A stretch of DNA of 54,616 nucleotides from a virus: positions 1-54,616 of the IMG/VR virus record IMGVR_UViG_3300042090_002577; one strand, 5' to 3'. A program made the translations under genes and the position numbers. Every line of letters starts with the position of its first letter. The first letter of the stretch is position 1. Under the pieces are notes generated by a model. It worked only from the letters and a program-made list of their open reading frames with translations, was not told the DNA's origin and searched no databases. Positions 29,101 to 53,982 of this stretch are shown in pieces.

Positions 29101-29108
29101 GGAACCTA
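29101..29108 (-). promoter_or_regulatory. Late promoter-like element (TAGGTTCC) before the KGG gene
   Basis: Complement of 29101-29108, within CGCTAGGTTCC, five nt upstream of ATG 29095. Member of the TAnnTTCG set seen before most structural genes. It overlaps the stop codon of the HTH gene. Confidence 0.45.
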
Positions 29109-29348
29109 GCGCGGCCGTTCTGGCACCGGTAGCCCAAGCTTACGGGCCGCCTCGTCAAGCACCTTGCGCGTGGCTATGTGGATATCAGCGCCGCTCTCCC
29201 ACCTACGTATTGTGCGCTCGTGGATGAGCGTGACGCCAGCCAGCTTGCGGCGCTCATGCGTGCTCAATAGAGCAGGCTTCTTGTCCACCTTTGCGGGTGC
29301 AGTTTGGTGAGCCTTAGTGCTAGCCAATATGCTGGCACATACGTACAC
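29106..29348 (-). CDS. Small HTH transcriptional regulator
   Basis: An 80-residue product from ATG 29348. Residues 33-75 form a Cro/XRE-like helix-turn-helix (RRKLAGVTLIHERTIRRWES, then IATRKVLDEAARKLG). The N-terminal 30 residues are basic and may be partly non-coding; a later start cannot be excluded. Three evenly spaced GTACAC sites surround its start and the upstream gap, suggesting self-regulation. Confidence 0.65.
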   Translation of the reverse strand: MYVCASILASTKAHQTAPAKVDKKPALLSTHERRKLAGVTLIHERTIRRWESGADIHIATRKVLDEAARKLGLPVPERPR

Positions 29349-29443
29349 CTATGCTCAGCAGCAGCGCAAGGCAAAAGTGCCACGCACGTTGTACACGCGG
29401 CCACGTGGCGCGCGCGCAGCACTGCGCGCGTGCTGCTGTACAC
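29343..29443. repeat. Three GTACAC sites in the 29349-29450 gap
   Basis: GTACAC at 29343-29348, 29391-29396 and 29438-29443, spaced 48 and 47 nt; the last two are within TGTACACGC. A CAGCAC/GTGCTG inverted repeat (29417-29435) lies between them. Candidate operators for the HTH regulator. Confidence 0.35.
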
Positions 29444-29450
29444 GCTGGCG

Positions 29451-32400
29451 TTACGCCTCTTCGGCTTCGGGCTGCTCGCCATCGAGTTCATCGATAACAG
29501 GCACGGCAACGCACCGGCAATTATGCGCTACAATACCGCCGGCCGCATACCACCCTACGGCGGTGGAGAGGTTGTAAACCCAGCCATGAAACTGAAGCCT
29601 GTCGATGCTGCATACGCGCGCAAACTGCTGGACGCCGGCAAGACCTTGAAGGAGGTTGCCACGCTGCTTGGCATCAATCCCGACAACCTGAGCAAGAAAC
29701 TCCGCGCTGTCGGCGTGCGCACCGACAGGCGAGTGGGCGCCGTGCGGCCCGTGCTCGTCGTGGATATGGCCCCCATCATTGCCGCATACGAGGCCGGCGA
29801 GAGCCTGCTCGCCATCGCCAAGCGCACCGGCTTTGACCGCGTGGTGCTCACACCCAGGCTGAGGCGAGCCGGTGTGCATATCCGAGGCGGCACCGAGGCC
29901 AACTTGCTGCGCATGGCCCGCATGAGCACCAGCGAGCGAGAGGCTCTGACCGATGCCGCTCATGCTGCGGTCCGTGGCACCACACGCACTGCAGAGTACC
30001 TCGCCTATCGTGCCACCACCAAGGGGCGCCGCATTGGTGCCGGCGAGCGTGAACTGCTTGCGGCGCTTACTGCTGCTGGCGAGGTGCCCGAAGGACAGCG
30101 GGCGTGCGGCAAGTACAACATCGACATCGCCTTCGGTACCATCGCCGTGGAAGTCTGCGTTGGCCGAGCGGCGAGGGCAAAGGACGCCATCTACCTCCAA
30201 CGCTGCAAATACCTCGCTGATAGCGGGTACACGGTCGTGCTTGTGTTCGCACGCAGGGCCGATGTCGTCCTCGGCAACCTGTACAACATCGTCCGTGAGT
30301 TGCAGCGCGCCAATGGGCACCCAGCCGCGGCGCGTGAGCACCGGGTGGTGAGGTGTCGCTCGGAGCGTTTTGCCCGTTACCAGAACGAGCGAGGTCAGTT
30401 CGCCGTCGTACCAACGCCGGAACGCTTCAGTTACACCGTGAGCGCACTCGACCTCGGTGCTTGACGGGAAGCACTGAAAGTCCTCCCCGGGATTGTTCAG
30501 TTCGCCATCGCCGGTATCCGGCGGGTCGTCGTAGCTGAATACCTTGCCGTGCAGCTCGCGGTGCCCAGGCCTGACACGCTCGTCTTGCGAAGTGTTCCAC
30601 ACATACTTGGTGACCCCAGCGGCCTGCTGCCGCGTGCGCGTGAGGTCCGCCGAAAGTTTCAACGTTTGGTCACGAGCTATCAGCTGCGCCCGGCTCGCGC
30701 TCACGGTGCCGCGCAGCTGCAGCGCTTCGGTGACGGTCTCGGGCTCGGCCCCAGCGCGCAGCGCCGCCAGCCGCTTGGCCCCCACGGCCTCACCCGCCGG
30801 CATGCCCTCGTAATCCTCGAGCACCTGGCGCACTTGGCTGAGGTAGGTGCGGCTGGCGTTGGTGATGAGGGCGACGTTCTCGCTGCGGGCCTGGTCTATG
30901 GCCCTCTGCAGCGCGGGCACCTCGCCCACGTGGATGCCCAGCAGCTTGGTGCCGGTGGCGGTGGTGCGGTGCACCTCGGTGGCCATGCGGTTGTAGGCCT
31001 CTTTGACCTTGCCGCGGACCCACTCGGCCGTTTGGCCCTGTAGGCGGATTACCCGGCGCTTGGCCTCGCCCGTACCCGGCGCGTCGTGCCGCTCGGTGGG
31101 GCTCGCCGGCGCCGCGCCGAGTTCGCGGTGGACGATGTGCAGCACCGCCTTGTGCAGGGCACCCTGGATGGCCACCAAGTCTGCCACGTACCGAGCCTCG
31201 GCGCGCTGGCTGGCCTTGAGGTGCTGCGCCTTGGCGCGCAGCTGGTCATCGCGCCACCCGGTGGCATAGATGGCGCGCGCCTGCGCCTGAGCTTTGGCCT
31301 TGCTCTTGTACACCTTGCCCGTGGTGCCCCATTGGTAGCCGCCAGGCACCGGGTGCGCGGGGTCCTGGTGCAGCGGCTCAGGCGGCTGCACGAGCCGCAG
31401 TACCGGGTGGCTGGCCGCGGCGAGCGCATCGAGTGTGTCGGCGTGGGCCAAAGCGAGGGCCTCATGCTCGGCCTGCATTGTGGCCATGCTGAGCTGTAGT
31501 TCGGCCACAAGCGCCTGCAGTGCATGTGTGCCCGCTGCCTGCTGGCCGAGGCCACCCAGTGCCTGCAGGCAAGGCCCAATGTGCGGCACGTGCTCGCCTG
31601 CCGCAGCCTGCCCGAGGGCTGCGACGGCGCCTGCCGCGGCCCCCGCAAACAATGGCGGCACGGCATGGCCAGCCACGCCCTGAGCAAGCCCAGCGAGCCC
31701 CTGGCGCGCATACCCGTGAGTGAGCGCCGGCTTGGGCGGGGGCGCCAGCGGCAGCGGTACAACTGCGGGCGCAGCCATGGGGTGCGCATGCGTGGGCTTT
31801 CGCCGTGGCTTGGCGTCCGCACGCGGCGTGCTGGCCTTGGTAGCCGCCTTGGCCAGCCTGCGGCGCCGCTCGCGCTCTCGCTCGTGGCTTGGGTTGGTAA
31901 ACGGTTCGTCGCTGCCCGCTGGCGCCCCAGCGGGCCAGTACACGGTGGCGCTGCGTGAGTTGAGCTGGCCAATGCGCTGGGCTGCAGGGCCCTCAAAATA
32001 CCCCCCATGGCCGCCGTAAAAACGGCCCACGGCTGCCTGTACGAACCCAGCTAGCTGCTGCCCGGCTGCGCCCCCAATGTACAAGTACCCATGGGCCGCC
32101 TGGGTGAGGCCACCCAGGCGCTGCGCGGCGCCGCCGCCGATGTAGATGTAGCCCACCGAGGACTGCACCAGCCCACCGAGTACCTGGGTGGCCGTGCCGA
32201 TGTAGGCCGTGGCGCCGGTAGCGGCCTGGCGCAGGCCTGCAAGGTGCTGCGCGGTGGGGCCCGAGTAGACAATGGCACCCGCGGCGGCTTGTACGAGCCC
32301 AGCGAGGTGCTGCACCACGCTGCCAGCAAACAGCTCGCCGCCTGCGGCAGCCTGCACGAGCCCACCCAGGTGCTGCGTGGCCAGCCCGGTAAAGGCCTCG

Positions 32401-32870
32401 GCGCCGGTGGCCGCCTGCCTGAGCCCACCCAGCACCTGGTAGCTGGTGCCTGCTGCCGGTGCTTGGCCAGGCGCGTCCGGCACTGCGGCGCGCGGTGGCG
32501 GTGCCGGCGGCCAGCTGGCTTGCGGTGCCACTTGCAGCAGTAGCGGCAGCGTGTACCGGGCCACCGCGGGCGGTGGCAGCGCTGGCCCAGGCCCCTCACG
32601 CGGGCCGCGTGGGGCACTGGTAACAGGTGCGCCAGCCGGTGGGGTGCGTGCACCTGGGTACCCAGGCACCGCCACCAGCTCGGGCCCGCGGGTACCCGGC
32701 GCCGGGAACCACGCAGGTGCAGCAGCAGGGCCGGTGGGCGCCCCATCCCGCGGGCCGCGCAGTACGAGCCCGGTGGGCGCCCCATCCCGCGGGCCGCGCC
32801 CAGGTACGGGCGGCGCCGCCGTGGTAGCGGCGGCCGCCCGTAGCTGGCGCAGCAGCAGGAGGAGCGACAC
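29451..32870 (-). CDS. MuF-type minor head protein with N-terminal repeats, interrupted by an intein
   Basis: An 1139-codon frame from GTG 32870; the spliced product would be 821 residues. Residues 143-303 are about seven copies of a 20-22 residue unit (QxLxGLxQAAxG), with degenerate copies near 385-450. Residues 510-555 hold GGYQWGTTGKVYKSKAKAQA, seen in phage head proteins. Residues 560-799 and 1118-1139 form the MuF/SPP1 gp7-like domain: RDQTLKLSADLTRTRQQAAG, then YVWNTSQDERVRPGHRELHG, then PGEDFQ joined across the intein to CRCVAVPV. The protein probably joins portal and DNA ejection inside the head. The intein sits in the conserved PGEDFxCRC motif. Confidence 0.88.
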   Translation of the reverse strand: MSLLLLLRQLRAAAATTAAPPVPGRGPRDGAPTGLVLRGPRDGAPTGPAAAPAWFPAPGTRGPELVAVPGYPGARTPPAGAPVTSAPRGPREGPGPALPPPAVARYTLPLLLQVAPQASWPPAPPPRAAVPDAPGQAPAAGTSYQVLGGLRQAATGAEAFTGLATQHLGGLVQAAAGGELFAGSVVQHLAGLVQAAAGAIVYSGPTAQHLAGLRQAATGATAYIGTATQVLGGLVQSSVGYIYIGGGAAQRLGGLTQAAHGYLYIGGAAGQQLAGFVQAAVGRFYGGHGGYFEGPAAQRIGQLNSRSATVYWPAGAPAGSDEPFTNPSHERERERRRRLAKAATKASTPRADAKPRRKPTHAHPMAAPAVVPLPLAPPPKPALTHGYARQGLAGLAQGVAGHAVPPLFAGAAAGAVAALGQAAAGEHVPHIGPCLQALGGLGQQAAGTHALQALVAELQLSMATMQAEHEALALAHADTLDALAAASHPVLRLVQPPEPLHQDPAHPVPGGYQWGTTGKVYKSKAKAQAQARAIYATGWRDDQLRAKAQHLKASQRAEARYVADLVAIQGALHKAVLHIVHRELGAAPASPTERHDAPGTGEAKRRVIRLQGQTAEWVRGKVKEAYNRMATEVHRTTATGTKLLGIHVGEVPALQRAIDQARSENVALITNASRTYLSQVRQVLEDYEGMPAGEAVGAKRLAALRAGAEPETVTEALQLRGTVSASRAQLIARDQTLKLSADLTRTRQQAAGVTKYVWNTSQDERVRPGHRELHGKVFSYDDPPDTGDGELNNPGEDFQCFPSSTEVECAHGVTEAFRRWYDGELTSLVLVTGKTLRATPHHPVLTRRGWVPIGALQLTDDVVQVAEDDIGPACEHKHDRVPAISEVFAALEVDGVLCPRRSANADFHGDGTEGDVDVVLAARPLSFGHLASSSKRRKQFTLAGTNAAPLGGGTIGEVLCSACGATDRSMSGIGQSLSLAGAHAGHAQQVGLGAASDMHTGSPQPGCEHHAVKAGALGDGEQALAGLVCGNDGGHIHDEHGPHGAHSPVGAHADSAEFLAQVVGIDAKQRGNLLQGLAGVQQFARVCSIDRLQFHGWVYNLSTAVGWYAAGGIVAHNCRCVAVPVIDELDGEQPEAEEA
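29520..30473 (-). mobile_element. Intein in the MuF protein (318 residues), carrying an antisense nuclease gene
   Basis: Residues 800-1117 of the MuF frame. It begins CFPSSTEVEC (block A; Cys1), continues to a block B with GKTLRATPHHPVL (Thr and His for the first acyl shift), and ends with HGWVYNLSTAVGWYAAGGIV followed by AHN and the extein Cys (blocks F and G; penultimate His, terminal Asn). Splicing would restore PGEDFQ-CRCVAVPV. The middle, between about residues 75 and 285, is Gly/Ala/His-rich, contains DFHGDGTEGDVDVV, and lacks LAGLIDADG motifs. No endonuclease is encoded in the sense frame; the opposite strand supplies one. Confidence 0.9.
29586..30464 (+). CDS. Putative homing endonuclease encoded antisense within the intein
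   Basis: A 292-residue product from ATG 29586; ATG 29523, also inside the intein, is an alternative. Two helix-turn-helix segments (LLDAGKTLKEVATLLGINPD and AAYEAGESLLAIAKRTGFD) precede a basic linker. A Vsr/DUF559-like nuclease fold follows: KYNIDIAFGTIAVEV (D180, E189), then RCKYLADSGYTVVLVFARRA. The stop (30462-30464) lies 9 nt inside the intein's first codon, and the whole gene fits within intein DNA. GC is visibly lower than the surroundings. Codons are in register with the sense frame, position 1 opposite position 3. Function is inferred; no EDxHD or LAGLIDADG motif is seen. Confidence 0.75.
   Translation: MKLKPVDAAYARKLLDAGKTLKEVATLLGINPDNLSKKLRAVGVRTDRRVGAVRPVLVVDMAPIIAAYEAGESLLAIAKRTGFDRVVLTPRLRRAGVHIRGGTEANLLRMARMSTSEREALTDAAHAAVRGTTRTAEYLAYRATTKGRRIGAGERELLAALTAAGEVPEGQRACGKYNIDIAFGTIAVEVCVGRAARAKDAIYLQRCKYLADSGYTVVLVFARRADVVLGNLYNIVRELQRANGHPAAAREHRVVRCRSERFARYQNERGQFAVVPTPERFSYTVSALDLGA
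31962..32438 (-). repeat. Coding repeats: about seven copies of a 20-22 residue unit in the MuF N-terminus
   Basis: Units start QVLGGLRQAATG, QHLGGLVQAAAG, QHLAGLVQAAAG, QHLAGLRQAATG, QVLGGLVQSSVG, QRLGGLTQAAHG and QQLAGFVQAAVG, each followed by a Gly/Ala/aromatic stretch. DNA copies have diverged, so these are old duplications. Confidence 0.85.
32731..32799 (-). repeat. 30-bp perfect direct repeat, period 39
   Basis: Positions 32731-32760 and 32770-32799 are identical and encode GPRDGAPTG twice near the MuF N-terminus. The 39-nt period keeps the frame. Confidence 0.92.
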
Positions 32871-32892
32871 GGGTGCCCCTTACCTGCAGCGC

Positions 32893-33687
32893 TCAGCGCT
32901 CTACGTACCCGACCTCGACCTCGAAGCTCGGCGCAGCACCCATGGATGCACCGTAGTAGTACTGCAGGAAGCTGCCGCCAGGCGGCACGCACACGGGGGC
33001 GTGTGCCACGCTGCTCACCGCGGGCACCGCGGCGCTGAGCGCCTGCGGCGGTAGCGGGCCGCCCACGGCGTCGGTGCCGAAGTTGATGATGTACTGGTCG
33101 AGCACTACGGGTATCTGCTGCCGCACCAGGCGGTTGCTCAGGATGCGCGCCGTGCTGCTCGCAGCCACGGCCACGAGGGCGCCTGCATACACCAGGGCGT
33201 TCGAGGCCTGCGGGCTCGCCACGTTGGTGGCGTACGGGCCAATAAGTGCCGTGCTCAGGTTGGTGCCGGCGCCGCCGCTACCAGCCGAGCTGTAGCGGGC
33301 CGTGGTGTCGAGCACCGTGGCCATGAATAGAGAGGTAGTGCTCGCCGCCGTGGCTGTTACCGTGAGGCACGTGTAGTCGAGCCAGATGTTGCGGCCGCCT
33401 TGCGGGTTGTTGTTGGTGACAATGAGCACCGGTGAGGTGGCCGTGTACGCAGCAAGAGAGGTCACGCCAGCGATGCCGGTGCCGATGGTCGGCGTGCGGC
33501 AGATGTAGTACGAGCCCTCGTCTGCAAGCACGTGCTGCTTGCTGGTGAGCAGCTGGCTTATGGCCTCGCCGTACTGCGAGGCGCGGGCGATTACTGGCAG
33601 GCCATCCGCCAGCTTGGCGAGGCTGGCGAGCAGGCGGCCGGTCCTGCCCCAGTTGAGGACGTCGTTATTGGGACCTGTACCGCTCAT
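32893..33687 (-). CDS. Predicted virion structural protein
   Basis: A 264-residue product from ATG 33687. Pattern seen in uncharacterised phage structural proteins: LNWGRTGRLLASLAKL, then SLAAYTATSPVLIVTNNNPQ, IWLDYTCLTVTATAAST, RYSSAGSGGAGTNLS and a C-terminal VCVPPGGSFLQYYYG. Probably a beta-rich capsid or connector-associated protein. Position between MuF and the smaller virion genes supports this. Confidence 0.7.
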   Translation of the reverse strand: MSGTGPNNDVLNWGRTGRLLASLAKLADGLPVIARASQYGEAISQLLTSKQHVLADEGSYYICRTPTIGTGIAGVTSLAAYTATSPVLIVTNNNPQGGRNIWLDYTCLTVTATAASTTSLFMATVLDTTARYSSAGSGGAGTNLSTALIGPYATNVASPQASNALVYAGALVAVAASSTARILSNRLVRQQIPVVLDQYIINFGTDAVGGPLPPQALSAAVPAVSSVAHAPVCVPPGGSFLQYYYGASMGAAPSFEVEVGYVER

Positions 33688-33710
33688 GGCTTATGTGCTC
33701 CGGTGGGTGC

Positions 33711-33989
33711 TTAGGTGGGGTTGGTGAGTGTGGCGGCATCGTCGCTAGGCAGCAGGGCACCAGTAGCCTGCGCCTGCAGCGATACGAGCTGGGACAGCAG
33801 CTGCACGATCTTTTGGCCGGTGGCCTCCGTGAGCGGGTACACCGCGCGGCCCTGGTCATCGAAGAGGCTCACGGCCTGTATCTCGGTGCCGCTCGCATCC
33901 GAGGGCTGCACCATCTTGAGCGGCAGCGGCGCGGCCGGTATGGCCCCCTGCGCGGCGGCCGGCTGTACGGGGATGCTTGTCTCGGCCAT
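33711..33989 (-). CDS. Small predicted structural protein
   Basis: A 92-residue product from ATG 33989. IQAVSLFDDQGRAVYPL, a helical TGQKIVQLLSQLVSLQAQA and a short tail. Commonly co-located with structural genes in related phages. No specific function. Confidence 0.62.
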   Translation of the reverse strand: MAETSIPVQPAAAQGAIPAAPLPLKMVQPSDASGTEIQAVSLFDDQGRAVYPLTEATGQKIVQLLSQLVSLQAQATGALLPSDDAATLTNPT

Positions 33990-33993
33990 GTGG

Positions 33994-34401
33994 CTACTGG
34001 CCCACCGGCATCGAGACAGTCCACGAAGTGATGCTCACGGTGCCGCCAGTGGTGAGGGCCACGTCGTTGAGGTTGAGGTCGCACCCGCTGGTACCCACGC
34101 TGCCGTCGATGACGGCCGTCACGCCGTCGCTCTTGTAGGCGCGGAACCACGTGGCGGTGCCGGTGGCTGCGGCGCTGGCGTTTGTGATGGCGTTGGCCGT
34201 GGCCGTGCCACCGCTCGCGCTGGCAAAGGCCGTGGCGCTCAGCGGCAGCGTAGCGAGCAGCGTTTGCGAGCTTACGGCCACATCCGGCGTAGCCGGCTGG
34301 CTGCCCGTGTACAGCTCAATAAAGCCGCTGTTGAGCGTTGCCAGGATGGCATTGAGCGCCGCGTTCCAAGCGGCAATACTCGCGTGCGTGTTTGCCGCCA
34401 T
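33994..34401 (-). CDS. Predicted structural protein
   Basis: A 135-residue product from ATG 34401. Helical start (ASIAAWNAALNAILATLNSG) then a repeat-poor beta-rich body (FIELYTGSQPATPD, TWFRAYKSDGVTAVIDGSVG) typical of phage virion proteins that form beta-sandwiches. A TACCTTCG element ends 8 nt before the ATG, so transcription of the downstream minus cluster likely begins here. Confidence 0.68.
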   Translation of the reverse strand: MAANTHASIAAWNAALNAILATLNSGFIELYTGSQPATPDVAVSSQTLLATLPLSATAFASASGGTATANAITNASAAATGTATWFRAYKSDGVTAVIDGSVGTSGCDLNLNDVALTTGGTVSITSWTVSMPVGQ

Positions 34402-34409
34402 GCTGCGGG

Positions 34410-34417
34410 CGAAGGTA
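34410..34417 (-). promoter_or_regulatory. Late promoter-like element TACCTTCG
   Basis: Complement of 34410-34417, in context CGCTACCTTCGCC, eight nt before ATG 34401. Member of the TAnnTTCG set. Confidence 0.55.
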
Positions 34418-34431
34418 GCGCAGCCTTTGGC

Positions 34432-34593
34432 CTAGTAGCCGTCCGGCTTGGCCTCTGCGGCTAGCGCCTGCACGCACTCGAGCGCCGCGTACCTGGGCGC
34501 GGCCTTGTGCTTGGCGCCGTTGGCCTTGTGCGGCTTGCACATGAGGCAGCCAGCTCGCCTGTTCTTGGGCCTGCCGCGCTTGTGGTGGGCCAT
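34432..34593 (-). CDS. Small basic CxxC phage protein
   Basis: A 53-residue product from ATG 34593. HHKRGRPKNRRAGCLMCKPH is a motif I have seen repeatedly in very short phage proteins, with a GCLMC knuckle. A TAAGCTGC near-match to the late element ends 4 nt before the ATG. Likely nucleic-acid-binding; function unknown. Confidence 0.75.
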   Translation of the reverse strand: MAHHKRGRPKNRRAGCLMCKPHKANGAKHKAAPRYAALECVQALAAEAKPDGY

Positions 34594-34613
34594 GGCTGCA
34601 GCTTAGCACGGCC

Positions 34614-34910: not shown

Positions 34911-34915
34911 GGCTG

Positions 34916-34923
34916 AGAAAGTA
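34916..34923 (-). promoter_or_regulatory. Late promoter-like element TACTTTCT
   Basis: Complement of 34916-34923 in context AGCTACTTTCTC, five nt before GTG 34910. Variant of the TAnnTTCG set. Confidence 0.4.
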
Positions 34924-34925
34924 GC

Positions 34926-35101: not shown

Positions 35102-37457
35102 GGTTGTGCAGCCGGCCAGCGAGGTACCGGTGCGCCTGCGCCGCCTGCGTGTGCGCCTCGGCGGTGCCGGTGGCGCGTGCGTGCTCGCTCGCGGCGCGGG
35201 CCTCGGCGAGCGTCCACTTGCGTGGCCCCCCGTCTGCCTTGGCATTGGCGCCCGCCCACGAGGGTGCCCGCACGCTGCCCGAGCGCGCCCCGCTCTTGCC
35301 CTTTTTCTGGGCGGTATGAAGCTCGTCCCACGGACCGTTTTTCACATGAACTTCAGCAACATACGCGAGCAGCGGCGCCCCCAGCGCCTCGTGCGCGAGG
35401 TAGCGGTGGTGGCCATCGACGATGCGGAGCTTGCTCTCGCCCGGCACTTTGACGAGGACCGCAGGCTTGCGGATGCCCTCTGGGTCGCCCTTGAGCGCCA
35501 GGCCGACCTTCTGCTTGAAGCTCTCGCTCGTGCCGTCGTGGCTCGCCCGCCACTGCGCCCGGTTGCTCGAGTCGATATCTTCGGTGGGCACCTCGAGTGG
35601 GCCATCCCAATGCGCCGCCAGCACCCAGCCAAGGTGGCTTGCCGGGTAGTCATCCAGCAGCTGCTGGAATACAGCCTTCGCCTGCTTGCCGTCCTGGCGT
35701 GTGGCCACAAGCGCGTCGAGCACCAGCAGCGCCGCGCTGTCCTCGGCCGCCATGAGGCTGTCCGCCTTGGCCTGCTTGGCCACCTCTGGCTTGCCCGGCT
35801 CGCGCCCGGCCTCGCCGCTGCTCGCCGGCGTGCTCTTGCCCAGCTGCGGCAGCGCCCCGGGGTCGATGTTGGTGCCCGTGGTGCCCATGAGCGGCACGGG
35901 CGCCTTGGGGCTGAGCGGCTCGCCCTGCCCTGGGGCGTTCACCGCGGGGCTGTTCTGCGGCGGCGGCTCGTTCTCGTACGGGTCGAACATGAGGCCCGCC
36001 TCGAGCACCTCCTCGCGCGCCTCTACGTCGAGGTTGGGGTACACCTCGGTGAGGTCCACGGCGACCTCCTCGGGCTTGACCACGCCCACGCCGATGTACG
36101 CCACGTCCCGCTGCGCGTTGGCTAGGCGCGTCGTGGCCAGCTCGGCGTCGGTGGGGCTCTGCAGCGGGCGGAAGTGGATTTTCCAGTCTACCAGCTTGCC
36201 GCGCAGCGGGCCCTTCTTGGCCAGCCCCAGCAGCTTCATGACCCGTATGAGCTTCGGCCCGAGCTCGTTCTTCTGCAGGCTCTCGATGGTGTCGTACCAC
36301 TTGCGCGTGTCGCTCTCCCCAGTGGCGTTCATGCCCTGAGGCGCCCTGCCAAAGAGCTCCGTAGCAGGCATGTCGGCGGCCGCGCTGAGGCGCAGCATCA
36401 TCACCTGCAGCAGCTCCGGGATACCCGAAAAGGGCGTGGGCTGGCGCTCGAAGCTCTCGGCGTTCTTGCCATCGGGGCCGCCCGCGTCGACGGCAATGCC
36501 GCGCACCACCGAGCGCGTCATCTCCATCATCTGCATGCGGGCAAGCAGCGCCGCGCGCTGGCCAGTGCTCACCGCTTTGATGAGGCCCTGCAGCTTGAAC
36601 ACGCCCTGGCTGGCGTCCTGCAGCAGGTACATGGCCGAGTCGAAGCTCGTGTCGAACTGCCGCATGGCGTCGTACACGCGCTGCAGCACCGACCAGGACC
36701 AGCCCGCGAGCTGCTGGCGCGTCACCACATCCGCCGGGTTGCCGTCAAACCGGATGACGCGCGACTCGTGCACGAGGCTCACCTGCGCGCCGCGCTGGCG
36801 TAGCTCACGCTCGCTGATTTTCTCGACGGGCCCGTGCTCGTTCCAGCCATACCCCGCGATGGCATTGCTGATGAGGTAGATTTGGGGCCGGCCGTACTTG
36901 TAGCCGGGGCGGCTCGCGGCCATGGCGGCGTACTGGCTCTGCACGTAGCTGTACCGCCGGTCCACCAGCGCGAGGCTGTAGAAGTCGCGGATGTTGTTTT
37001 CGTTGAGCGGCTCGGTGAGCTCGCCGCCATCGTCGATGGCCATGATGTTGAGCGCGCCGCCGTACAGGCGCCCCCACCGCGCGCCCTCGCGGAAGTTCTC
37101 GTGCAGGTCGAGGTACTCGGTGGCCCAGTCCTCGGCGTCCTTGACCTCCTGCTGCTTGAGGGGCGTGCCGTTGACGCTGCCCTCGAGCTCCCAGCCGCGG
37201 CGGAACTGCTCGTCGACGCGCTTGCTCACAATCTTGGAGGCGATGTCCGAGCCGTTCATGAGGCTCGTGAGCTCCTGGTCGAGCACCCGGTAGACGGGCC
37301 AGTAGTGGGCAGCCTTGCTCTTGTCGATGCCCCATACGCCGAGGCCCGTTTGCTGGTTCACCCATGCGTCCTGCCGGATGCCTCGGCCACGCTCGGCCCA
37401 TGTGTCCACCTCCACATCGGTGCCAAAAGGCCGGCCGTACGGGTCGAGTAGCGCCAT
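35034..37457 (-). CDS. DUF1073-type portal protein with C-terminal ParB-like domain
   Basis: An 807-residue product from ATG 37457. Residues 1-500 follow the DUF1073 portal family: WVNQQTGLGVWGIDKSKAAH, RRGWELEGSVNG, RLYGGALNIMAIDD, VHESRVIRFDGNP, MLRLSAAADMPATELFGRAP, GMNATGESDTRKWYDTIESL and KIHFRPLQSPTDAE. A Pro-rich linker follows. Around residues 660-715, VLVKVPGESKLRIV followed by DGHHRYLAHEALGAPL (681 on) resembles a ParB N-terminal/nuclease-like domain. The helical C-terminus is Ala-rich. TAGCTTCG ends 7 nt before the start. Portal role firm, fusion domain role unknown. Confidence 0.88.
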   Translation of the reverse strand: MALLDPYGRPFGTDVEVDTWAERGRGIRQDAWVNQQTGLGVWGIDKSKAAHYWPVYRVLDQELTSLMNGSDIASKIVSKRVDEQFRRGWELEGSVNGTPLKQQEVKDAEDWATEYLDLHENFREGARWGRLYGGALNIMAIDDGGELTEPLNENNIRDFYSLALVDRRYSYVQSQYAAMAASRPGYKYGRPQIYLISNAIAGYGWNEHGPVEKISERELRQRGAQVSLVHESRVIRFDGNPADVVTRQQLAGWSWSVLQRVYDAMRQFDTSFDSAMYLLQDASQGVFKLQGLIKAVSTGQRAALLARMQMMEMTRSVVRGIAVDAGGPDGKNAESFERQPTPFSGIPELLQVMMLRLSAAADMPATELFGRAPQGMNATGESDTRKWYDTIESLQKNELGPKLIRVMKLLGLAKKGPLRGKLVDWKIHFRPLQSPTDAELATTRLANAQRDVAYIGVGVVKPEEVAVDLTEVYPNLDVEAREEVLEAGLMFDPYENEPPPQNSPAVNAPGQGEPLSPKAPVPLMGTTGTNIDPGALPQLGKSTPASSGEAGREPGKPEVAKQAKADSLMAAEDSAALLVLDALVATRQDGKQAKAVFQQLLDDYPASHLGWVLAAHWDGPLEVPTEDIDSSNRAQWRASHDGTSESFKQKVGLALKGDPEGIRKPAVLVKVPGESKLRIVDGHHRYLAHEALGAPLLAYVAEVHVKNGPWDELHTAQKKGKSGARSGSVRAPSWAGANAKADGGPRKWTLAEARAASEHARATGTAEAHTQAAQAHRYLAGRLHNLKQDAAAAKHEDMAAVHEAALA

Positions 37458-37464: not shown

Positions 37465-37472
37465 CGAAGCTA
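37465..37472 (-). promoter_or_regulatory. Late promoter-like element TAGCTTCG before the portal gene
   Basis: Complement of 37465-37472, in GCTAGCTTCGCC, seven nt before ATG 37457. It faces the plus-strand copy at 37570-37577 across a 133-bp gap. Confidence 0.5.
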
Positions 37473-37569
37473 GCTGCGCCACGTTTTACCGGGCTTTTGC
37501 CACCGAGCCGCCCACGGTGCGCCCACGCTCGGCCCACCGCGCGGCGGCGTGGCGGGCAGCGCTCGCCGC

Positions 37570-37577
37570 TACCTTCG
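37570..37577 (+). promoter_or_regulatory. Late promoter-like element TACCTTCG before the protease gene
   Basis: In CGCTACCTTCGCG, thirteen nt before ATG 37591. Its position supports ATG 37591 over the in-frame GTG 37549 as the start. Confidence 0.5.
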
Positions 37578-41288: not shown

Positions 41289-41398
41289 CGGCGTCACCTC
41301 CTGTTGGCGCTGGTCCGGGCCCCGGGTGTTTGCGCACCGCGGGGCCTCTCTTATTGTAGCGCTGCGGCGCCGGCGCCGGTATGGCCAAACGGCCGTGC

Positions 41399-41406
41399 TA
41401 AGTTCG
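41399..41406 (+). promoter_or_regulatory. Late promoter-like element TAAGTTCG
   Basis: In GCTAAGTTCGCC, four nt before ATG 41411. Confidence 0.45.
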
Positions 41407-41818: not shown

Positions 41819-41828
41819 CCCATAGGGC

Positions 41829-41836
41829 TACCTTCG
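41829..41836 (+). promoter_or_regulatory. Late promoter-like element TACCTTCG
   Basis: In GGCTACCTTCGAG, ten nt before GTG 41847. Confidence 0.5.
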
Positions 41837-46801: not shown

Positions 46802-47257
46802 ATGCTCAAGTACCTCACCGCTGCCTTGCTGCTTGCCATGGCCTGCGCCTCGTGCGACGCCATGCCACCCACCCCTGCCGCCATGGCGCTCGCGGGGGAC
46901 GCTGGGCAGGTGGCAAGCCACCACCCACTGCTCGCTGCAGGCTTCACCGCGGGCACGGACGCCTTCTCGTATGCTGCTGGCACCGCCGGCACGTACACGG
47001 TACCGGCTGGCACATACGTTACGAGCCTCACGGCGCACGCCACGGGCAGCGGCGCCACGCTCACCATGACGCCCTCGGGGCCCAACGTTACGAGCCCCGT
47101 GGCAGGGCCGGCCATTGCCATCCCCGCCGGCGCCGCATACGCGCTCAACAGGCCGGTGCTTAGCGGCCAGGCCAACGAGCTCGGGGCCGGCACCACGCTG
47201 GTGTTTGCTGAGACGGACTCGTATGTGGTGACCCTGTACGCCGTGGGCGGCCCGTAG
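46802..47257 (+). CDS. Putative small lipoprotein/exported protein
   Basis: A 151-residue product from ATG 46802. MLKYLTAALLLAMACASCDA looks like a secretion signal, with Cys residues near the end that could be a lipobox (atypical). The rest is beta-rich and repetitive (FSYAAGTAGTYTVPAGTYVT). Function unknown. May pair with the preceding LamG protein. Confidence 0.6.
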   Translation: MLKYLTAALLLAMACASCDAMPPTPAAMALAGDAGQVASHHPLLAAGFTAGTDAFSYAAGTAGTYTVPAGTYVTSLTAHATGSGATLTMTPSGPNVTSPVAGPAIAIPAGAAYALNRPVLSGQANELGAGTTLVFAETDSYVVTLYAVGGP

Positions 47258-48446: not shown

Positions 48447-48454
48447 GGCACCAG

Positions 48455-48483
48455 AGTATGTACTCGCCCGGTACAATAGGCAA
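48455..48483 (-). promoter_or_regulatory. Promoter/operator candidate (TTGCCT-17-CATACT)
   Basis: Complement positions: TTGCCT (48478-48483), spacer 48461-48477 and CATACT (48455-48460). The palindrome TGTACTCGCCCGGTACA spans 48459-48475. The GTACATACT core is identical to that at the recombination promoter (3668-3676). Confidence 0.5.
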
Positions 48484-48496
48484 GTCCTCAGCAGTA

Positions 48497-48742
48497 TCAT
48501 TTTGCCTTGGGCTTGCCCCGGCAGCGCGCACACTTGGGCTGGTCGTAGATGTGCATGGCATTGTCCCCGGGGCCATACGTAGTGCGCAGTTCGAGTAACT
48601 GCTGGCCGCCGCACTCAGGGCACATGCGGCTATAGCCGGCAGCGATGGCCACGGTTACCTCGCGCACGCCGCCGCTCACCTCGCGCTGCAGTCGTACTTT
48701 CGAGGCTTTTGTATCGTGTGTAAAGAAGCTGTCATGGCTCAT
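48497..48742 (-). CDS. Zinc-ribbon protein
   Basis: An 81-residue product from ATG 48742. CPECGGQQLLELRTTYGPGD and CARCRGKPKAK form a CxxC...CxxC ribbon with a beta hairpin between. Basic C-terminus. Function unknown. Confidence 0.65.
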   Translation of the reverse strand: MSHDSFFTHDTKASKVRLQREVSGGVREVTVAIAAGYSRMCPECGGQQLLELRTTYGPGDNAMHIYDQPKCARCRGKPKAK

Positions 48743-48779
48743 GTGGCGGCGCCTCCAAGCGCATGGCATGTTTTGGTGC

Positions 48780-49580
48780 TCACCAAGGCAGCGCGGCCTG
48801 CTCAGTGCAAACAGCCTCGGGCTCAAAGAGCCTGCGCGGGCGAGGCCCAAGGCGTACCTTCGGCTTCTGTATTGGCACCGCAGCGCGTAGCGCACCAGCA
48901 GGCGGTACCTTGCGGTCTCGCTCGTACCACTCAGCAAATACCGGGAATGTGAATACGGCACCAGTGCGGCCGCAGCGTATGCGGTGCACGAGCCAGCCAC
49001 GCACCACTGCCGTGGGCAGCGCCTCAAACCCAAGTGGCAGCTGCCTGTCCGCCGCGCAGAAGCCACCAAGCGCCTCGCTCAGGTCCCACCCGCCACCACC
49101 GCGGCCGTATGAGGTACGCACAAGGTCGTTGAGGCGCGCATCCTCCGCAAGTGCCCAGGCCGCAGCGTCCCCAAGCCCACGCGGGTGGCCCGCGCCTACT
49201 AGTGCCACGGTGGCGAGCCACTCGCGCGCCGTCTGCTTGCGCGGCGTGCGTGGCCGCGTATGGCGCACATAGCCGGCCAGCCCAAGCACGGCCAGGGCTT
49301 TGGCGCGCTGGCTGAAAAACGCACATACCTCGTCCGTCGCCTGCACTATGTCAAACGCGCGGCGCCGCTGCAGGTGCTCGGGGCTTGCCACGCGGCCATG
49401 GCCTAGGTGTGCGAGCAGCGCAGCCTTTACCTCGCGCCCCTCACCAGGTAGCACGCCAATTGGCCAATACGGGCCCTTGCCGGTGGCGAGCTCAGCCCAG
49501 CGCTTGGGCACGCGCGCATCTCGCGTCGCGGCAATGTGGAAGGCGTACGTGAGCATTGACTGGCAAATGGTGACGGCCAT
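48780..49580 (-). CDS. Hypothetical protein adjacent to the methyltransferase
   Basis: A 266-residue product from ATG 49580. Helical N-terminus (MLTYAFHIAATRDARVPKRW), a WPIGVLPGEGREVKAALLAH segment that could be winged-helix, and a C-terminal WLVHRIRCGRTGAVFTFPVF. No family recognised. Follows the methyltransferase by 2 nt, so it may be functionally linked to it. Confidence 0.6.
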   Translation of the reverse strand: MAVTICQSMLTYAFHIAATRDARVPKRWAELATGKGPYWPIGVLPGEGREVKAALLAHLGHGRVASPEHLQRRRAFDIVQATDEVCAFFSQRAKALAVLGLAGYVRHTRPRTPRKQTAREWLATVALVGAGHPRGLGDAAAWALAEDARLNDLVRTSYGRGGGGWDLSEALGGFCAADRQLPLGFEALPTAVVRGWLVHRIRCGRTGAVFTFPVFAEWYERDRKVPPAGALRAAVPIQKPKVRLGPRPRRLFEPEAVCTEQAALPW

Positions 49581-49582
49581 GC

Positions 49583-50689
49583 CTAAGCGCCCCCAATGCA
49601 GGCTTGGGCGGCCCGCTTTGGGTCGCCCTTCACATAACAGAGTACGTTTTGGTGGCTCTTTCCGAGCTTCCTACCGGCGTCGAAGATCTTGCCCGAGCGT
49701 ATGGGCAGGCTGCCCACGCTGGTGACGAGCACGGCCTCGTTGTACAGGCTGAGGCCGGCGCTCGCGAAGGCGCTGGTGGTGACGTTTGGGAAGCCGCGGT
49801 ACAGGCCGCGCTCGTCGCGCACGTCCCCCACCACGAAGCATGCGAAGGCGTCCGGCTTGAGCAGCGCGCAGGCGGCCTCAATGATGCGGCGGTAGGCGCG
49901 GCAGAAGTCCGGCCACGCCATGGCGCTGAGGTCCGCCGGGTGCTCGCTGTACACCTCGAGGTCGTAGTAGGGCGGGCAGCTGAACATGAAGTCGTACCCG
50001 GCAGCGGGCCGCCCCCCGTGCTCGGGCAGCATGGTGGCGAGCGCCGGCAGCAGCTCGCAGCTGTCCCCCTTGTGCCACCAGATGCGCGCCTCGGGTGCAA
50101 TGGCCTCGCGCTGCGCCTCGTTGGCCGCCACCTGCGCGCCACTGAGCTCGCAGCCGGTGTACGCGTAGCCCATGAGGCCGGCCACGATGCCGCGCACGCT
50201 GCCGCCCGCAAACGGGTCGAGTATGGCGCCCCCCTTGGGGCACCACCAGCGGTACGCGAGCTCGCAGAGCATGGGGTCGAAGATGCTGGTGCCGCTGCCG
50301 CCCCAGGCGTTCTCGCCCTTGCTCGTGTCGTAGTCGGCACCGTACCCCTTGCGCTCGGTGGCCTGGCTGAGCAGGCCTTTGGCAGGGCGCACCACACTGC
50401 CACCCGGGGCGGCTCGAGGTGCCAGCGCATCGCACATGCCCCCGCCGCCCGCGCCAATGGGCTGAGTGTGGGCCTGCGCCCCGCGGCCAAGCTCACTCTG
50501 GATGCCCAGCGCGAGCCACTGCCGCTTGCGCTCCTGCCACTCGCCCTGCCTGGCGTCGAGCACGCTAAAGGGGGGCACGCCGAAGCGCTCGGCGAGCGGC
50601 GGCTGCGGTGCCTGGCGTATGGGCTCGCCGAAGAGGTCTCGCCCGAGCAGTGCCTCATCCACACCAGGGTTATGGTACTGTTCGACCAT
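49583..50689 (-). CDS. DNA methyltransferase (N6-adenine/N4-cytosine type)
   Basis: A 368-residue product from ATG 50689; in-frame codons upstream to 50719 are possible but less likely. AILDPFAGGSVRGIVAG is motif I and FSCPPYYDLEV is motif IV (the (D/N/S)PPY catalytic loop). The N-terminal region (NPGVDEALLGRDLFGEPIRQ, then PPFSVLDARQGEWQERKRQW) is typical of phage-borne DNA methylases of this class. Probably protects phage DNA from host restriction. Specificity unknown. It sits in an opposite-strand block inside the tail operon. Confidence 0.85.
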   Translation of the reverse strand: MVEQYHNPGVDEALLGRDLFGEPIRQAPQPPLAERFGVPPFSVLDARQGEWQERKRQWLALGIQSELGRGAQAHTQPIGAGGGGMCDALAPRAAPGGSVVRPAKGLLSQATERKGYGADYDTSKGENAWGGSGTSIFDPMLCELAYRWWCPKGGAILDPFAGGSVRGIVAGLMGYAYTGCELSGAQVAANEAQREAIAPEARIWWHKGDSCELLPALATMLPEHGGRPAAGYDFMFSCPPYYDLEVYSEHPADLSAMAWPDFCRAYRRIIEAACALLKPDAFACFVVGDVRDERGLYRGFPNVTTSAFASAGLSLYNEAVLVTSVGSLPIRSGKIFDAGRKLGKSHQNVLCYVKGDPKRAAQACIGGA

Positions 50690-50765
50690 CGCGCGGCGCC
50701 CTCCAAGCGCCCCGGTCAAGCCCCGGCCGTTCGCGCGGCGCGGGGCGCTTACTTCTCAGGTACCA

Positions 50766-50794
50766 CCATAGCGCAGCAGTAACGTCACGCGCAA
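50766..50794 (-). promoter_or_regulatory. Promoter candidate for the methyltransferase (TTGCGC-17-CTATGG)
   Basis: Complement: TTGCGC (50789-50794) and CTATGG (50766-50771). Lies in the 165-bp divergent gap 50690-50854, opposite the TACCTTCG element of the sheath gene. Confidence 0.4.
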
Positions 50795-50821
50795 GGCCGC
50801 AGGGCGCCATACCGGGCCCAC

Positions 50822-50829
50822 TACCTTCG
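50822..50829 (+). promoter_or_regulatory. Late promoter-like element TACCTTCG before the sheath
   Basis: In CACTACCTTCGCC. A five-codon ORF (ATG 50841 to TGA 50858) starts 11 nt downstream and overlaps the sheath ATG at 50855. Confidence 0.5.
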
Positions 50830-50854
50830 CCCCCGTACACATGAGGGCGAGCGC

Positions 50855-52765
50855 ATGAGCCTTTCGGACTTCGTCCAGGTATCCGTCAGTATCAGCGCGG
50901 CCAGCTCGCCCACGGTGCCGGCGCTCAATGTGGGGCTAATCGCCGCATTTCACTCTCATTACGCCGACCGAGTCCGCATCTACTCGAGCAGCGGCGGCCT
51001 GGCGCAGATGGTCACGGACGGCTTCTCGACCAGCGAGCCGGCCTACCTCGCGGCCGCAGCGTACCTCGCAGCCCCCAATGCCCCCGCGCAGTTCTGCATC
51101 GGCCGCAGGGCCAACCCACCGCTGCAGACTCTCAACCTGAGCTTCGCCGATGGCACTGTTGGCGACCAGTACAACCTCACGCTGACGGGCTCGGACGGCA
51201 AGGCGCACGCCCTCACGTACCTCAACGTTATCAACCCGGGCACCGCAGCCTCGGGCGGCACGGTGACTACCACGGGCGCGAGCTCGGGCATCACCTTCAG
51301 CGCCTCGCAGACGATGGCCAAAGGTGGCCTGCTCATCTTCTCGGGCACCGGTGGCCAGCCAGGCGTCTACTACGCGCTCAGCGGCGCGGTGAGCGGCACC
51401 GCGGGCACCCTCACGGGCCCCTACCAGGGGCTCGGCGGCAGCGGCGAGACCTTCACCTACTTGCCGCCGCTCGCCGGCACGGCGTCGCCCGTCAACGGCT
51501 CGCCCACGGTCCCCACGAGCACCACGCAGGTGGGCGTGGTGTACCCGGGCGACAGCGTGCAGTTCGTGCAGCAGCTCGGCACGTACTACACGGTGCTCAC
51601 CGTCTCGGCCACGCAGCTGGTGCTTACGCAGGCGTACACGGGCACGACGCCGAGCGGCCCAGGCACCACGAACTTCTCGCTGGTATGCGCGAGCAGCACC
51701 GCGGCCACCGCCGTGGCGGCGCTCGCCAATGCGCTCACGCACGTGGGCACCGCCAGCGTCATCGCCACGCCGCAGATACTGGCCACCGGCCTGCCCGCCA
51801 ACTACGGCGAGGCCAGCACGGTGCAGCTCTCGCGCACCGACGGCTCGCTCACCAACGTGAGCGGCTGGGTGGCCAACGGCTTCGGCAACATCCTGCTGCA
51901 GGACGTCACCGCCGACCCTGGCATCACGGCCGACCTGGTGGCCATCAACAAGGCCAACCCGGGCGCGTGGTACGCGCTCATCCTCGACAGCAACTCAGCG
52001 GCTGAGGTTGAGGCCGCGGCCATCTGGGCCGAGGCCACCGGCGTCGGCGGCAAGGTGTTCTTCTGGAACAACTCGGACTGGGGCAACACGCAGACGCTCG
52101 TCACCAACGACGTGTTCTCGGTGCTGCAGGCCGAGAGCTTCGTGCGCGACTTCGGGCAGCAGAACGACCAGTCGCTACTCTGCTACGCGGGGTCCGCCAT
52201 CTGCGGCCAGGCCCTGGCCATGAACCCGGGCAGCTACACGCTGGCGTACAAGAGCCTGCCGGGCGTGCCGGCCGACTCGGACACCACGCTCACCGAAGCG
52301 CAGGCCATGGCGCTCAACTCGATGACGGCAGCGAGCCCCGGGCCAGGCGCCAAGAACGGCAACTACTACAAGACGGTGGCGGGGCAGAACTGGCTCTTCC
52401 CGGGCACCGCCCCGAGCGGCCGCTTTTTCGACCTCACCATCGGCATCGACTGGCTGCAGACGCGCATCCAGGCGGCCGTGGCGGCGGCCATCGCGGGGCT
52501 GCCCAAGCTGCCCTTCACCGACTTCGGCATCGGCGCCATCGGCGATGCCATCTACGGCGTGCTGCTGCTCGGCTCGACGCCCCAGTACGGGCTGATCCTG
52601 CCCAATGGCCAGGACGCGGCGCGGCCCATCAAGGTCACCGTGCCCACCGCCGCGAGCCTCACGAGCGCGCAGCGGGCCACGCGCAACGTCCCCGGCATCA
52701 CCTTCAGCGCCGGCCTGCAAGGCGCCATCGAGACCACCACCGTCATCGGCACGCTGACCCCCTGA
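50855..52765 (+). CDS. Contractile tail sheath (DUF3383-type)
   Basis: A 636-residue product from ATG 50855. Characteristic order: FVQVSVSISAASSPTVPALN, AAAAYLAAPNAPAQFCIGRR, then a C-terminal NDQSLLCYAGSAICGQALAM, LAYKSLPGVPADSDTTLTEA, FDLTIGIDWLQTRIQAAVAA and ATRNVPGITFSAGLQGAIE. Two inserted beta units lie near residues 145-210 and 220-280, similar to the head-completion extension. They make it longer than typical members. The sheath makes this a myovirus. Confidence 0.9.
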   Translation: MSLSDFVQVSVSISAASSPTVPALNVGLIAAFHSHYADRVRIYSSSGGLAQMVTDGFSTSEPAYLAAAAYLAAPNAPAQFCIGRRANPPLQTLNLSFADGTVGDQYNLTLTGSDGKAHALTYLNVINPGTAASGGTVTTTGASSGITFSASQTMAKGGLLIFSGTGGQPGVYYALSGAVSGTAGTLTGPYQGLGGSGETFTYLPPLAGTASPVNGSPTVPTSTTQVGVVYPGDSVQFVQQLGTYYTVLTVSATQLVLTQAYTGTTPSGPGTTNFSLVCASSTAATAVAALANALTHVGTASVIATPQILATGLPANYGEASTVQLSRTDGSLTNVSGWVANGFGNILLQDVTADPGITADLVAINKANPGAWYALILDSNSAAEVEAAAIWAEATGVGGKVFFWNNSDWGNTQTLVTNDVFSVLQAESFVRDFGQQNDQSLLCYAGSAICGQALAMNPGSYTLAYKSLPGVPADSDTTLTEAQAMALNSMTAASPGPGAKNGNYYKTVAGQNWLFPGTAPSGRFFDLTIGIDWLQTRIQAAVAAAIAGLPKLPFTDFGIGAIGDAIYGVLLLGSTPQYGLILPNGQDAARPIKVTVPTAASLTSAQRATRNVPGITFSAGLQGAIETTTVIGTLTP

Positions 52766-52777
52766 GGAGCCTGAGGC

Positions 52778-53227
52778 ATGGGCGTTTTCAACTTGAGCGT
52801 ACAGGATGCGGACCAGTACCGCATCATGCTGGCCAGCGCGCCCGTCTCCAATGGGGCAGGCGCGAGCGGCTACGCCGATGGCGAGTTCCTCAAGGTCACG
52901 TACGGCGACGACTTCTTCAAGCTGGTCATCGGCACCGACGGCGCTGCCGTGCGCAGCAAGACCAACAACCGATCCATCCAGGTCGAGCTCAGTTTGCTGC
53001 AGGGCAGCGCGACCAACGGCTTCCTGAGCGGCTTGGTCAACCTGGACCTGGCGCAGCCCAACGGCGCCGGCATCGGCAGCTTCGTGCTCGAGGACCTGCA
53101 GGGCATCACCAACATTGTGTGCAGCCGCATGTGGATCATGAAGCCTGCGGAGCCCACGCTGGACCGCACGGCCACGAAGCGCACCTGGACGCTGCAAGGC
53201 CTGTTCGACTTGCTCGTGATCGCATAG
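52778..53227 (+). CDS. Tail tube protein (DUF3277-type)
   Basis: A 149-residue product from ATG 52778. YADGEFLKVTYGDDFFKLVI, GAAVRSKTNNRSIQVELSLL and NGAGIGSFVLEDLQGITNIV are family hallmarks. Directly after the sheath, as expected for the inner tube. Confidence 0.9.
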   Translation: MGVFNLSVQDADQYRIMLASAPVSNGAGASGYADGEFLKVTYGDDFFKLVIGTDGAAVRSKTNNRSIQVELSLLQGSATNGFLSGLVNLDLAQPNGAGIGSFVLEDLQGITNIVCSRMWIMKPAEPTLDRTATKRTWTLQGLFDLLVIA

Positions 53228-53250
53228 GGCCAGAACGCCCACCCAGCACC

Positions 53251-53556
53251 ATGGCGAAGCCGGCCAGCGAACTGCTCGCGCACGTAGGTTACGAGGCCTA
53301 CCGCGAGTCGTTTGCGCGCAACGAGTGGGCAGACACTGGCCAGTCGGCAATCGTAGGCAAGCCACCGCCGTACCCTGAGTGGGGCGCCATGCATGAGGCC
53401 GAGCGGCGGGGGTGGCTCGCGGCGGCCGAGGCCATTGCGCGCACGAGCTCGGCTCGCGAGCGTGAGGCGGCGAGCGCGCCCCATGGGCGGTGCCCCAAGT
53501 GCAAGCGGCCAGTGCAGGCCGCGGAGCCGCACTCATGCGAGGCGAGCGGTGGGTGA
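53251..53556 (+). CDS. Hypothetical protein with C-terminal CxxC
   Basis: A 101-residue product from ATG 53251. EWADTGQSAIVGKPPPYPEW and a C-terminal RCPKCKRPVQAAEPHSC knuckle. No family recognised. Overlaps the next start by 8 nt. Confidence 0.55.
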   Translation: MAKPASELLAHVGYEAYRESFARNEWADTGQSAIVGKPPPYPEWGAMHEAERRGWLAAAEAIARTSSAREREAASAPHGRCPKCKRPVQAAEPHSCEASGG

Positions 53557-53767
53557 GCCAGCCGCGCGCCGCCGCTGCAGCACCTGCGGGCAGCTGGTAA
53601 CGCCCGGCCGGTCGTACCGGCAGGAGGCTGCGAGCAGTGGCGCCTGCGCTGCGTGCGGCGCCGCCAAGGTGCGCGAGGCCCAGGCCGACAGCGCGCGCGA
53701 CGACGAGGACAGCGGGGCCCACCCGGTGCCTGGCACGGCGGACAGCAGCGGCGGGCGGTACGGGTGA
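53549..53767 (+). CDS. Small zinc-ribbon protein
   Basis: A 72-residue product from GTG 53549. CSTCGQLVTPGRSYRQEAAS and CAACGAAKVREAQ make a zinc-ribbon. Acidic tail. Function unknown. Confidence 0.55.
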   Translation: MGEPAARRRCSTCGQLVTPGRSYRQEAASSGACAACGAAKVREAQADSARDDEDSGAHPVPGTADSSGGRYG

Positions 53768-53982
53768 GCGAGGCTGTCGTTTGCTTCTGGTGTGAGCCAG
53801 CTGGCGATGCCGAGCCGTACAGGTACCGGCGCGTCGACACGGGAGAGACGTTCGCGCTCGGCCAGCGTGACGGGCCAGCGAGGCGGCTAACCCAGCCGCT
53901 ACCTTCGCCCCTGCCATGCGCAAAACGGTTGAGAAGACCATCGACGGCTGCCGGTACCGCTGCACGCAGTTCGGCACGCTGA
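53764..53982 (+). CDS. Small Cys-containing protein overlapping the chaperone gene
   Basis: A 72-residue product from GTG 53764 (GTGA overlap). SEAVVCFWCEPAGDAEPYRY looks coding; the last third overlaps the late element and the chaperone start and is probably just read-through. It may really end earlier in related phages. Confidence 0.45.
   Translation: MSEAVVCFWCEPAGDAEPYRYRRVDTGETFALGQRDGPARRLTQPLPSPLPCAKRLRRPSTAAGTAARSSAR
53900..53907 (+). promoter_or_regulatory. Late promoter-like element TACCTTCG
   Basis: In CGCTACCTTCGCC, eight nt before ATG 53916. Confidence 0.5.

Follow-up and report, generated by a model that had tools for sequence, protein, structure and literature searches.

Candidate Bacteroidota-type -7 boxes in front of predicted leaderless late messages of an uncultured GC-rich phage

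Several described promoter classes resemble, each in part, an element that recurs in front of late genes of an uncultured phage, IMG/VR record IMGVR_UViG_3300042090_002577, which is the subject of this report. Among them are the sigma-A (ABfr-type) promoters of Bacteroidota, which carry TTTG at -33 and TAnnTTTG at -7. The portion of PMC6847099 available to us gives the -7 box the geometry T-12, A-11, T-8, T-7, T-6 and G-5 and describes flavobacterial messages as mostly leadered, 87% of them by more than 10 nucleotides (nt), and the accessible part of PMC9723704 puts leaderless messages at 5.5%. As far as the excerpt of PMC1524935 goes, the late promoters of phage T4 consist of a -10 element only and are read by gp55, and the available parts of PMC3160421 and PMC12340547 describe leaderless genes led by TANNNT that depend little on a -35 sequence. 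The element considered here, GCTAnnTTCG, is probably a -7 box of the Bacteroidota type that would drive leaderless or nearly leaderless late messages.

The window, by which we mean the whole stretch of DNA analysed, is the complete record of 54,616 bases, with a guanine-plus-cytosine (GC) content of 68.7%. Its right arm encodes a portal, head protease, major head protein, neck protein, tail sheath and tail chaperone, its left arm a DnaB, a RecT and a replication initiator, and a diverged terminase gene lies at 16452-17987. A second IMG/VR contig is 100% identical to the phage across the 21.7 kb compared, and it therefore provides no independent evidence. Start codons were taken from a self-trained gene caller (76 genes, with start 34542 swapped for the 34593 of an earlier, sequence-only reading), while a second caller, to which the 34593 start was not added by hand, gave 65 genes. 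With a single-base background, a mixture-model motif search returned a GC-rich coding pattern; in its place, 98,102 gapped words in the 40 nt upstream of the 76 starts were enumerated, each scored by a binomial p. Such motif discovery over start-upstream regions had been suggested by the sequence-only reading, and it placed GCTAnnTTC first of all words, with 8/8 genome copies upstream of starts (p 3.6e-13); the words ranked next are pieces of the same motif. The second caller again put all eight copies upstream, and GCTAnnTTCG itself has six genome copies, every one at a start. The element is not equally frequent in control or intragenic regions: with 28 word shapes, the best of 100 sets of shifted starts reached 3.6e-8 and the best of 100 sets of internal in-frame ATG or GTG codons 2.8e-7, so that 0/200 control sets attained the score of GCTAnnTTC.

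All ten sites of the sequence-only reading were found where it had placed them, 34593 as a weak match, and the GCTA or ACTA context that it described was seen at each of them, with GCTA at nine and ACTA at one (50855). The exact core TACCTTCG precedes 34401 (-), 37591 (+), 41847 (+), 50855 (+) and 53916 (+), and variant cores are found at 37457 (-, TAGCTTCG), 41411 (+, TAAGTTCG), 34910 (-, TACTTTCT) and 29095 (-, TAGGTTCC); the weak core at 34593 (-) is TAAGCTGC, in an element that does not fit GCTAnnTTC. The element is non-palindromic and has the same orientation relative to its gene at all ten sites (Table 1). Its last base lies 4, 4, 5, 5, 7, 8, 8, 10 or 13 nt from the start codon, with 50855 taken separately. 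For 50855, a leader open reading frame (ORF) of 11 nt had been proposed; the leader ORF is there, but it is 18 nt long (50841-50858), and 11 nt is the spacer in front of it. At eight of the ten sites no start codon earlier than the listed one is possible, the exceptions being 29095, with TTG alternatives 42 and 63 nt upstream, and 37591, with a GTG alternative 42 nt upstream. The element of 37591 is divergent from that of the portal gene (37457), and the gene starting at 29095 heads the leftward run that ends with the terminase.

Table 1. Element sites, the leader ORF and the candidate sigma gene in the window
Feature	Position	Strand	Remarks
GCTAGGTTCC, variant element	29101..29110	-	5 nt to ATG 29095, KGG-repeat protein gene
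GCTACCTTCG	34410..34419	-	8 nt to ATG 34401, virion structural protein, phrog_3758
GCTAAGCTGC, weak element	34598..34607	-	4 nt to ATG 34593, 53-codon ORF
GCTACTTTCT, variant element	34916..34925	-	5 nt to GTG 34910
GCTAGCTTCG	37465..37474	-	7 nt to ATG 37457, portal
GCTACCTTCG	37568..37577	+	13 nt to ATG 37591, head maturation protease
GCTAAGTTCG	41397..41406	+	4 nt to ATG 41411
GCTACCTTCG	41827..41836	+	10 nt to GTG 41847, virion structural protein, then neck protein
ACTACCTTCG	50820..50829	+	11 nt to leader ATG 50841, 25 nt to ATG 50855 (tail sheath)
Leader ORF, five codons, 18 nt	50841..50858	+	overlaps sheath start (ATGA); GAGGG Shine-Dalgarno-like stretch for 50855
GCTACCTTCG	53898..53907	+	8 nt to ATG 53916, tail assembly chaperone
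278-amino-acid protein, sigma-70 region-2 similarity (residues about 33-135)	15619..16455	+	candidate late sigma

When nine sites are aligned they read GCTA-N2-TTC-G-C, with C-13, T-12, A-11, T-8, T-7 and C-6 each present in 9/9, G-14 and C-4 in 8/9 and G-5 in 7/9. The -7 core TA-N2-TT is thus present in every aligned site.

The element is confined to the late arm. It is found at 10/29 starts to the right of 28,830 and at 0/47 to the left (Fisher 2e-5), and the difference persists among starts with an upstream gap of at least 20 nt (10/23 in the right arm, 0/19 in the left); such a gap precedes all ten motif starts and 32/66 of the others. It stands at the divergent portal and protease pair (37457/37591), before the sheath gene, before the tail chaperone gene and at 29095. 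The major head protein gene has no element and presents an SD-like (Shine-Dalgarno-like) GGAG, as would be expected for a gene inside a unit.

Motif starts also differ from the rest in their pairing with the anti-SD sequence, the median being +0.6 at nine motif starts, -6.2 at 19 other late starts and -6.5 at 47 early ones (p 5e-4); 50855, kept apart from the nine, has -6.1. SD four-mers occur at only one of the nine. A paired SD test reached significance in the early genes (p 3e-4) and in the remaining late ones (p 0.02), and gave no significant result at motif starts. When early genes were restricted to those of at least 100 amino acids, the four-mer count alone was not raised (7/32 vs 2-8/32 in control windows). 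The earlier claim that motif starts lack SD sites stands for eight of the ten, the exceptions being 50855, with GAGGG, and 41847, with a GAGG that overlaps the element.

These sites look like, and are placed like, the ABfr -7 box. They lack the -33 sequence and T-6, and we therefore do not assign them to the ABfr promoter family. Judged from the sequence, they are very probably late promoters with leaderless or near-leaderless messages, and their specificity is probably of the Bacteroidota type; that both hold together, with the host sigma tentatively as the reader, is the explanation we prefer, with moderate confidence. From these observations, we infer promoter activity, start points, a host and a reading sigma as follows. 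GCTAnnTTCG(C) would be the -10-type element of a late promoter family with at least nine members and no -33 partner, that is, a GC-rich form of the -7 box (T-12, A-11, T-8, T-7, a pyrimidine at -6 and G-5). It would be read by RNA polymerase carrying a sigma of -7 specificity, most likely from a GC-rich Bacteroidota host, which would open the DNA at TA..TT and start transcription about five bases past the G, at a distance of 0-9 nt from the start codon. In each late unit, translation of the first gene would then use a message with no leader or hardly any, and genes further down would rely on SD sites or coupling. With the geometry in the available portion of PMC6847099, the predicted leaders are 0 nt (41411, 34593), 1 nt (29095, 34910), 3 nt (37457), 4 nt (34401, 53916), 6 nt (41847) and 9 nt (37591), and for 50855, 7 nt up to the leader ORF of five codons and 21 nt up to the gene itself. 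On these figures, the earlier claim that transcription starts at the start codon or beside it would be right for most sites, with short leaders predicted for 41847 and 37591.

Bacterial genomes provide an argument for a Bacteroidota specificity. A pattern scan of GTDB gave 72 matches. Of the 17 in Bacteroidota, 12 have an ATG that begins an ORF of at least 120 amino acids, vs 10/55 of the others (some matches are orthologous and hence dependent). The ratio of GCTANNTTCG to its reversed pattern, computed for 42 whole genomes, was 0.67-1.27 in the 13 Bacteroidota; among the 29 non-Bacteroidota it did not exceed 0.71 except in Rubrobacter (1.8). In two Flavobacteriales of about 66% GC (G043 and G044), the de novo top upstream words are TAnCTT and CTAnnTT. 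There, TA..TTCG lies within 40 nt upstream of starts in 15/28 and 17/54 copies, respectively, and TA..TTTG in 11/25 and 12/35, so that the two forms are about equally common upstream, and the nearest box is 0-9 nt from the start in 12/41 and 16/58 cases. Hymenobacter has the TTTG form upstream (12/61) and hardly the TTCG form (2/44), and in 14 non-Bacteroidota samples TA..TTCG was upstream in 2/119 copies. Computation thus now backs the likeness to the Bacteroidota -7 box, which in the sequence-only reading was an analogy. In the stretches of G043 and G044 (L163-L202), -7 boxes cluster 4-9 nt before start codons; the cluster suggests that leaderless genes are numerous there, in a phylum for which such messages are reported to be rare. 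A Gemmatimonadota host was considered and rejected, given that Gemmatirosa plasmid 1 has an SD signal but TA..TTCG upstream in 0/7.

Several observations weigh against this explanation. The exact TACCTTCG has six copies, one of which (48855, +) lies within an opposite-strand gene and outside a GCTA or ACTA context, and TAnnTTCG is upstream of starts in just 7/13 copies. There is no common -35 or -33 sequence among the nine aligned sites, only a single G at one column, and neither in the phage nor in G043 and G044 does TTG or TTTG occur at a shared offset. Position -6 is C in 9/9 phage sites, whereas the two Flavobacteriales have T there in about half of their boxes and C in about half. None of the 47 left-arm starts, that is, no early gene, carries the element, which would be surprising for promoters read by nothing but the unmodified host holoenzyme. 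Nine further GC-rich Bacteroidota samples show a weak signal or none (11/83 TA..TTCG upstream), and in plasmids of the Rhodothermota Rhodothermus and Salinibacter the counts are 2/24 and 0/7, with no SD signal. An element-plus-ATG match is found in 38/395 evenly drawn Bacteroidota genomes, with a maximum of three per genome.

The use of SD sites by the phage is a further difficulty. SD four-mers are found at 20/66 non-motif starts (50855 included) vs 7-10/66 in control windows, and the SD ratio (signal over control windows) is 1.96 in the phage vs 0.66 in G043, 1.03 in G044 and 0.91 in Hymenobacter; it is 0.17-0.96 in five phages of Bacteroidia, 1.5-12.8 in 14 non-Bacteroidota samples and 2.09 in Rhodothermus phage RM378. 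The GC-rich Bacteroidota G366 and G261 have ratios of 3.6 and 2.3, and there may therefore be a Bacteroidota host that uses SD sites, but no sampled Bacteroidota is strong in both SD signal and motif. Searches for the host add little: the portal and the sigma-like protein have no relative in 45 genomes of the order of G043, a scan of GTDB with the portal found no relative, and the late half of the phage gave only short, chance-like matches when compared with DNA. Tetranucleotide similarity shows a weak preference for Bacteroidota (0.58, 0.58 and 0.57 vs 0.55 for Massilia).

The alternative that survives best, which we regard as possible but unlikely, is that the phage's own sigma-like protein (Table 1) reads phage-specific, -10-only late promoters. 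Such a protein, with region 2 only as in T4 gp55, would bind core polymerase in a GC-rich host that uses SD sites, and its promoters would resemble the Bacteroidota -7 box by convergence or as a secondary effect. Its gene is the last of the early rightward run, convergent with the terminase gene, a fitting place given that the motif is restricted to the late arm. Sigma-70 is its best family in three libraries (PHROG 7e-4; Pfam Sigma70_r2 1e-3, below the cut-off; NCBIfam 6e-3), and it matches the 198-amino-acid sigma of a portal relative, L012 (1e-7 pairwise; 1.9e-6 as the one match in 40 records), which in turn matches RpoD region 2 (7e-8) and Sigma70_r2 above the cut-off. The gene is, by its sequence, likely a divergent phage sigma. 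Region 4 gave no match in weak searches, which agrees with promoters that have no -35. Residues 121-278 have no Pfam family. The SD use of the phage, moreover, points to a host outside Bacteroidia. Against this, the Bacteroidota box is matched outside the general -10 consensus (T-8, C-13, G-5, C-4) and in its spacing to the start. The protein has no relatives among 50,697 phage records, viral contigs returned only the protein itself, and a single-sequence structure prediction was useless (predicted local distance difference test, pLDDT, of 40). If the phage sigma were the reader, one switch from host to phage sigma would alter both transcription and translation, from SD-led early to leaderless late genes. 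A phage sigma may also have the host's -7 specificity, in which case both readings would be true together. In the record of L012, we note the sigma-70 family protein of 198 amino acids at 1261-1857 (-) of L090; the portal of that phage is 38% identical to that of the window.

Considerably less likely is an ordinary TANNNT -10 box before leaderless genes of a phage whose GC-rich host would be, for instance, an actinobacterium or Deinococcus. TAnnnT is present in 9/9 aligned elements, with T-12, A-11 and T-7 invariant and the T 12-21 nt before the start codon (the leader ATG for 50855), near the spacing given for leaderless genes in the available part of PMC3160421, and 69% GC and SD use would suit these hosts. 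Nevertheless, T-8, C-13 and C-6 are invariant as well (9/9), and TA..TTCG is hardly found upstream in samples of Arthrobacter (0/7), Mycobacterium (0/12), Rubrobacter (1/7) and D. deserti (0/5).

It is more doubtful still that the element acts in translation initiation or as an operator. It does lie near start codons and in one orientation, but its spacing to the start differs by at least 9 nt, it is missing from the internal genes of runs, which would equally require a translation signal, and its AT positions are those that sigma melts during promoter opening. Orientation, variable spacing and the controls led us to set this reading aside together with chance or a gene-calling artefact, which is hardly credible: the starts come from our own scripts and the motif was picked after looking, but 0/200 control sets reach its score, both callers agree and the element also occurs in the contig L008.

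The contig L008, of 4.4 kb, encodes a portal that shares 58% identity with that of the phage. Its single CTAnnTTCG lies 5 nt upstream of an ATG, which opens an ORF reaching past the contig end. This ORF resembles the phage gene at 46802-47257, which has no element itself; L008 therefore backs the signal and not conservation at one gene. The other portal-relative loci show no convincing motif: of 81 tested, L038 alone reached p 0.003, with two called genes there. L008 scored 0/1 in this test, in which the caller's starts omit the truncated ORF. When viral contigs were searched for the element plus ATG, 0/55 loci long enough to test among the matches listed were enriched. Beyond the second, identical IMG/VR contig and L008, which is short, no phage convincingly showed the element, and this also counts against the preferred explanation. 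In the literature, with subscription papers mostly outside our scope, we found no description of such promoters in a Bacteroidota phage.

Other features of the window deserve mention. The gap at 3661-3738, between a leftward and a rightward early gene, is AT-rich (49%), contains the palindrome TATGTACATA and is likely an early operator or promoter region without the GCTAnnTTCG element. At 3767-3844, a 39-bp tandem repeat has two perfect copies, both spanned by an ARAGORN tRNA-Gln call that we think is false. The leftward run that ends with the terminase includes sugar-nucleotide genes at 20082-25460 (-), namely, a GDP-mannose dehydratase-like gene, an epimerase, a DegT aminotransferase and a glycosyltransferase. 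The small protein at 28826-29095 (-), with a variant late element in front, has two KGG stress-repeat motifs (Pfam 4.9e-13). Two identical copies of a 30-bp repeat, 39 bp from start to start, occupy 32731-32799, in a stretch without a called gene adjoining a head-morphogenesis gene.

If the preferred explanation, a Bacteroidota-type -7 box in front of leaderless late messages, is right, the late transcription of an uncultured myovirus of 69% GC could be read from sequence alone, and the box would point to a GC-rich Bacteroidota host. Compared with the ABfr-type promoters, the phage elements share TA, TT and G at equal spacing, and the two Flavobacteriales genomes match the phage in their top words and in the cluster 4-9 nt before starts; the phage elements differ in having C-6 (9/9) where those promoters have T and in having no counterpart of their -33 TTTG, and the phage uses SD sites at its other genes. 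The T4 late promoters (TATAAATA, read by gp55), as far as the excerpt describes them, are likewise -10-only elements at late genes only, and this phage too encodes a sigma-like protein, although the sequence of its element differs and the sigma function is here a prediction. In the TANNNT-led leaderless genes of Actinobacteria and Deinococcota, a -10 box stands beside the start codon, as it does in the phage, whose core is longer (GCTAnnTTCGC) and absent from the sampled members of these groups. Under the preferred explanation, the phage would be a further example of a division between SD-led and leaderless genes by promoter class; the Thermus phage phiYS40, with another host and another promoter sequence, reportedly also has class-specific leaderless messages beside SD-led genes.

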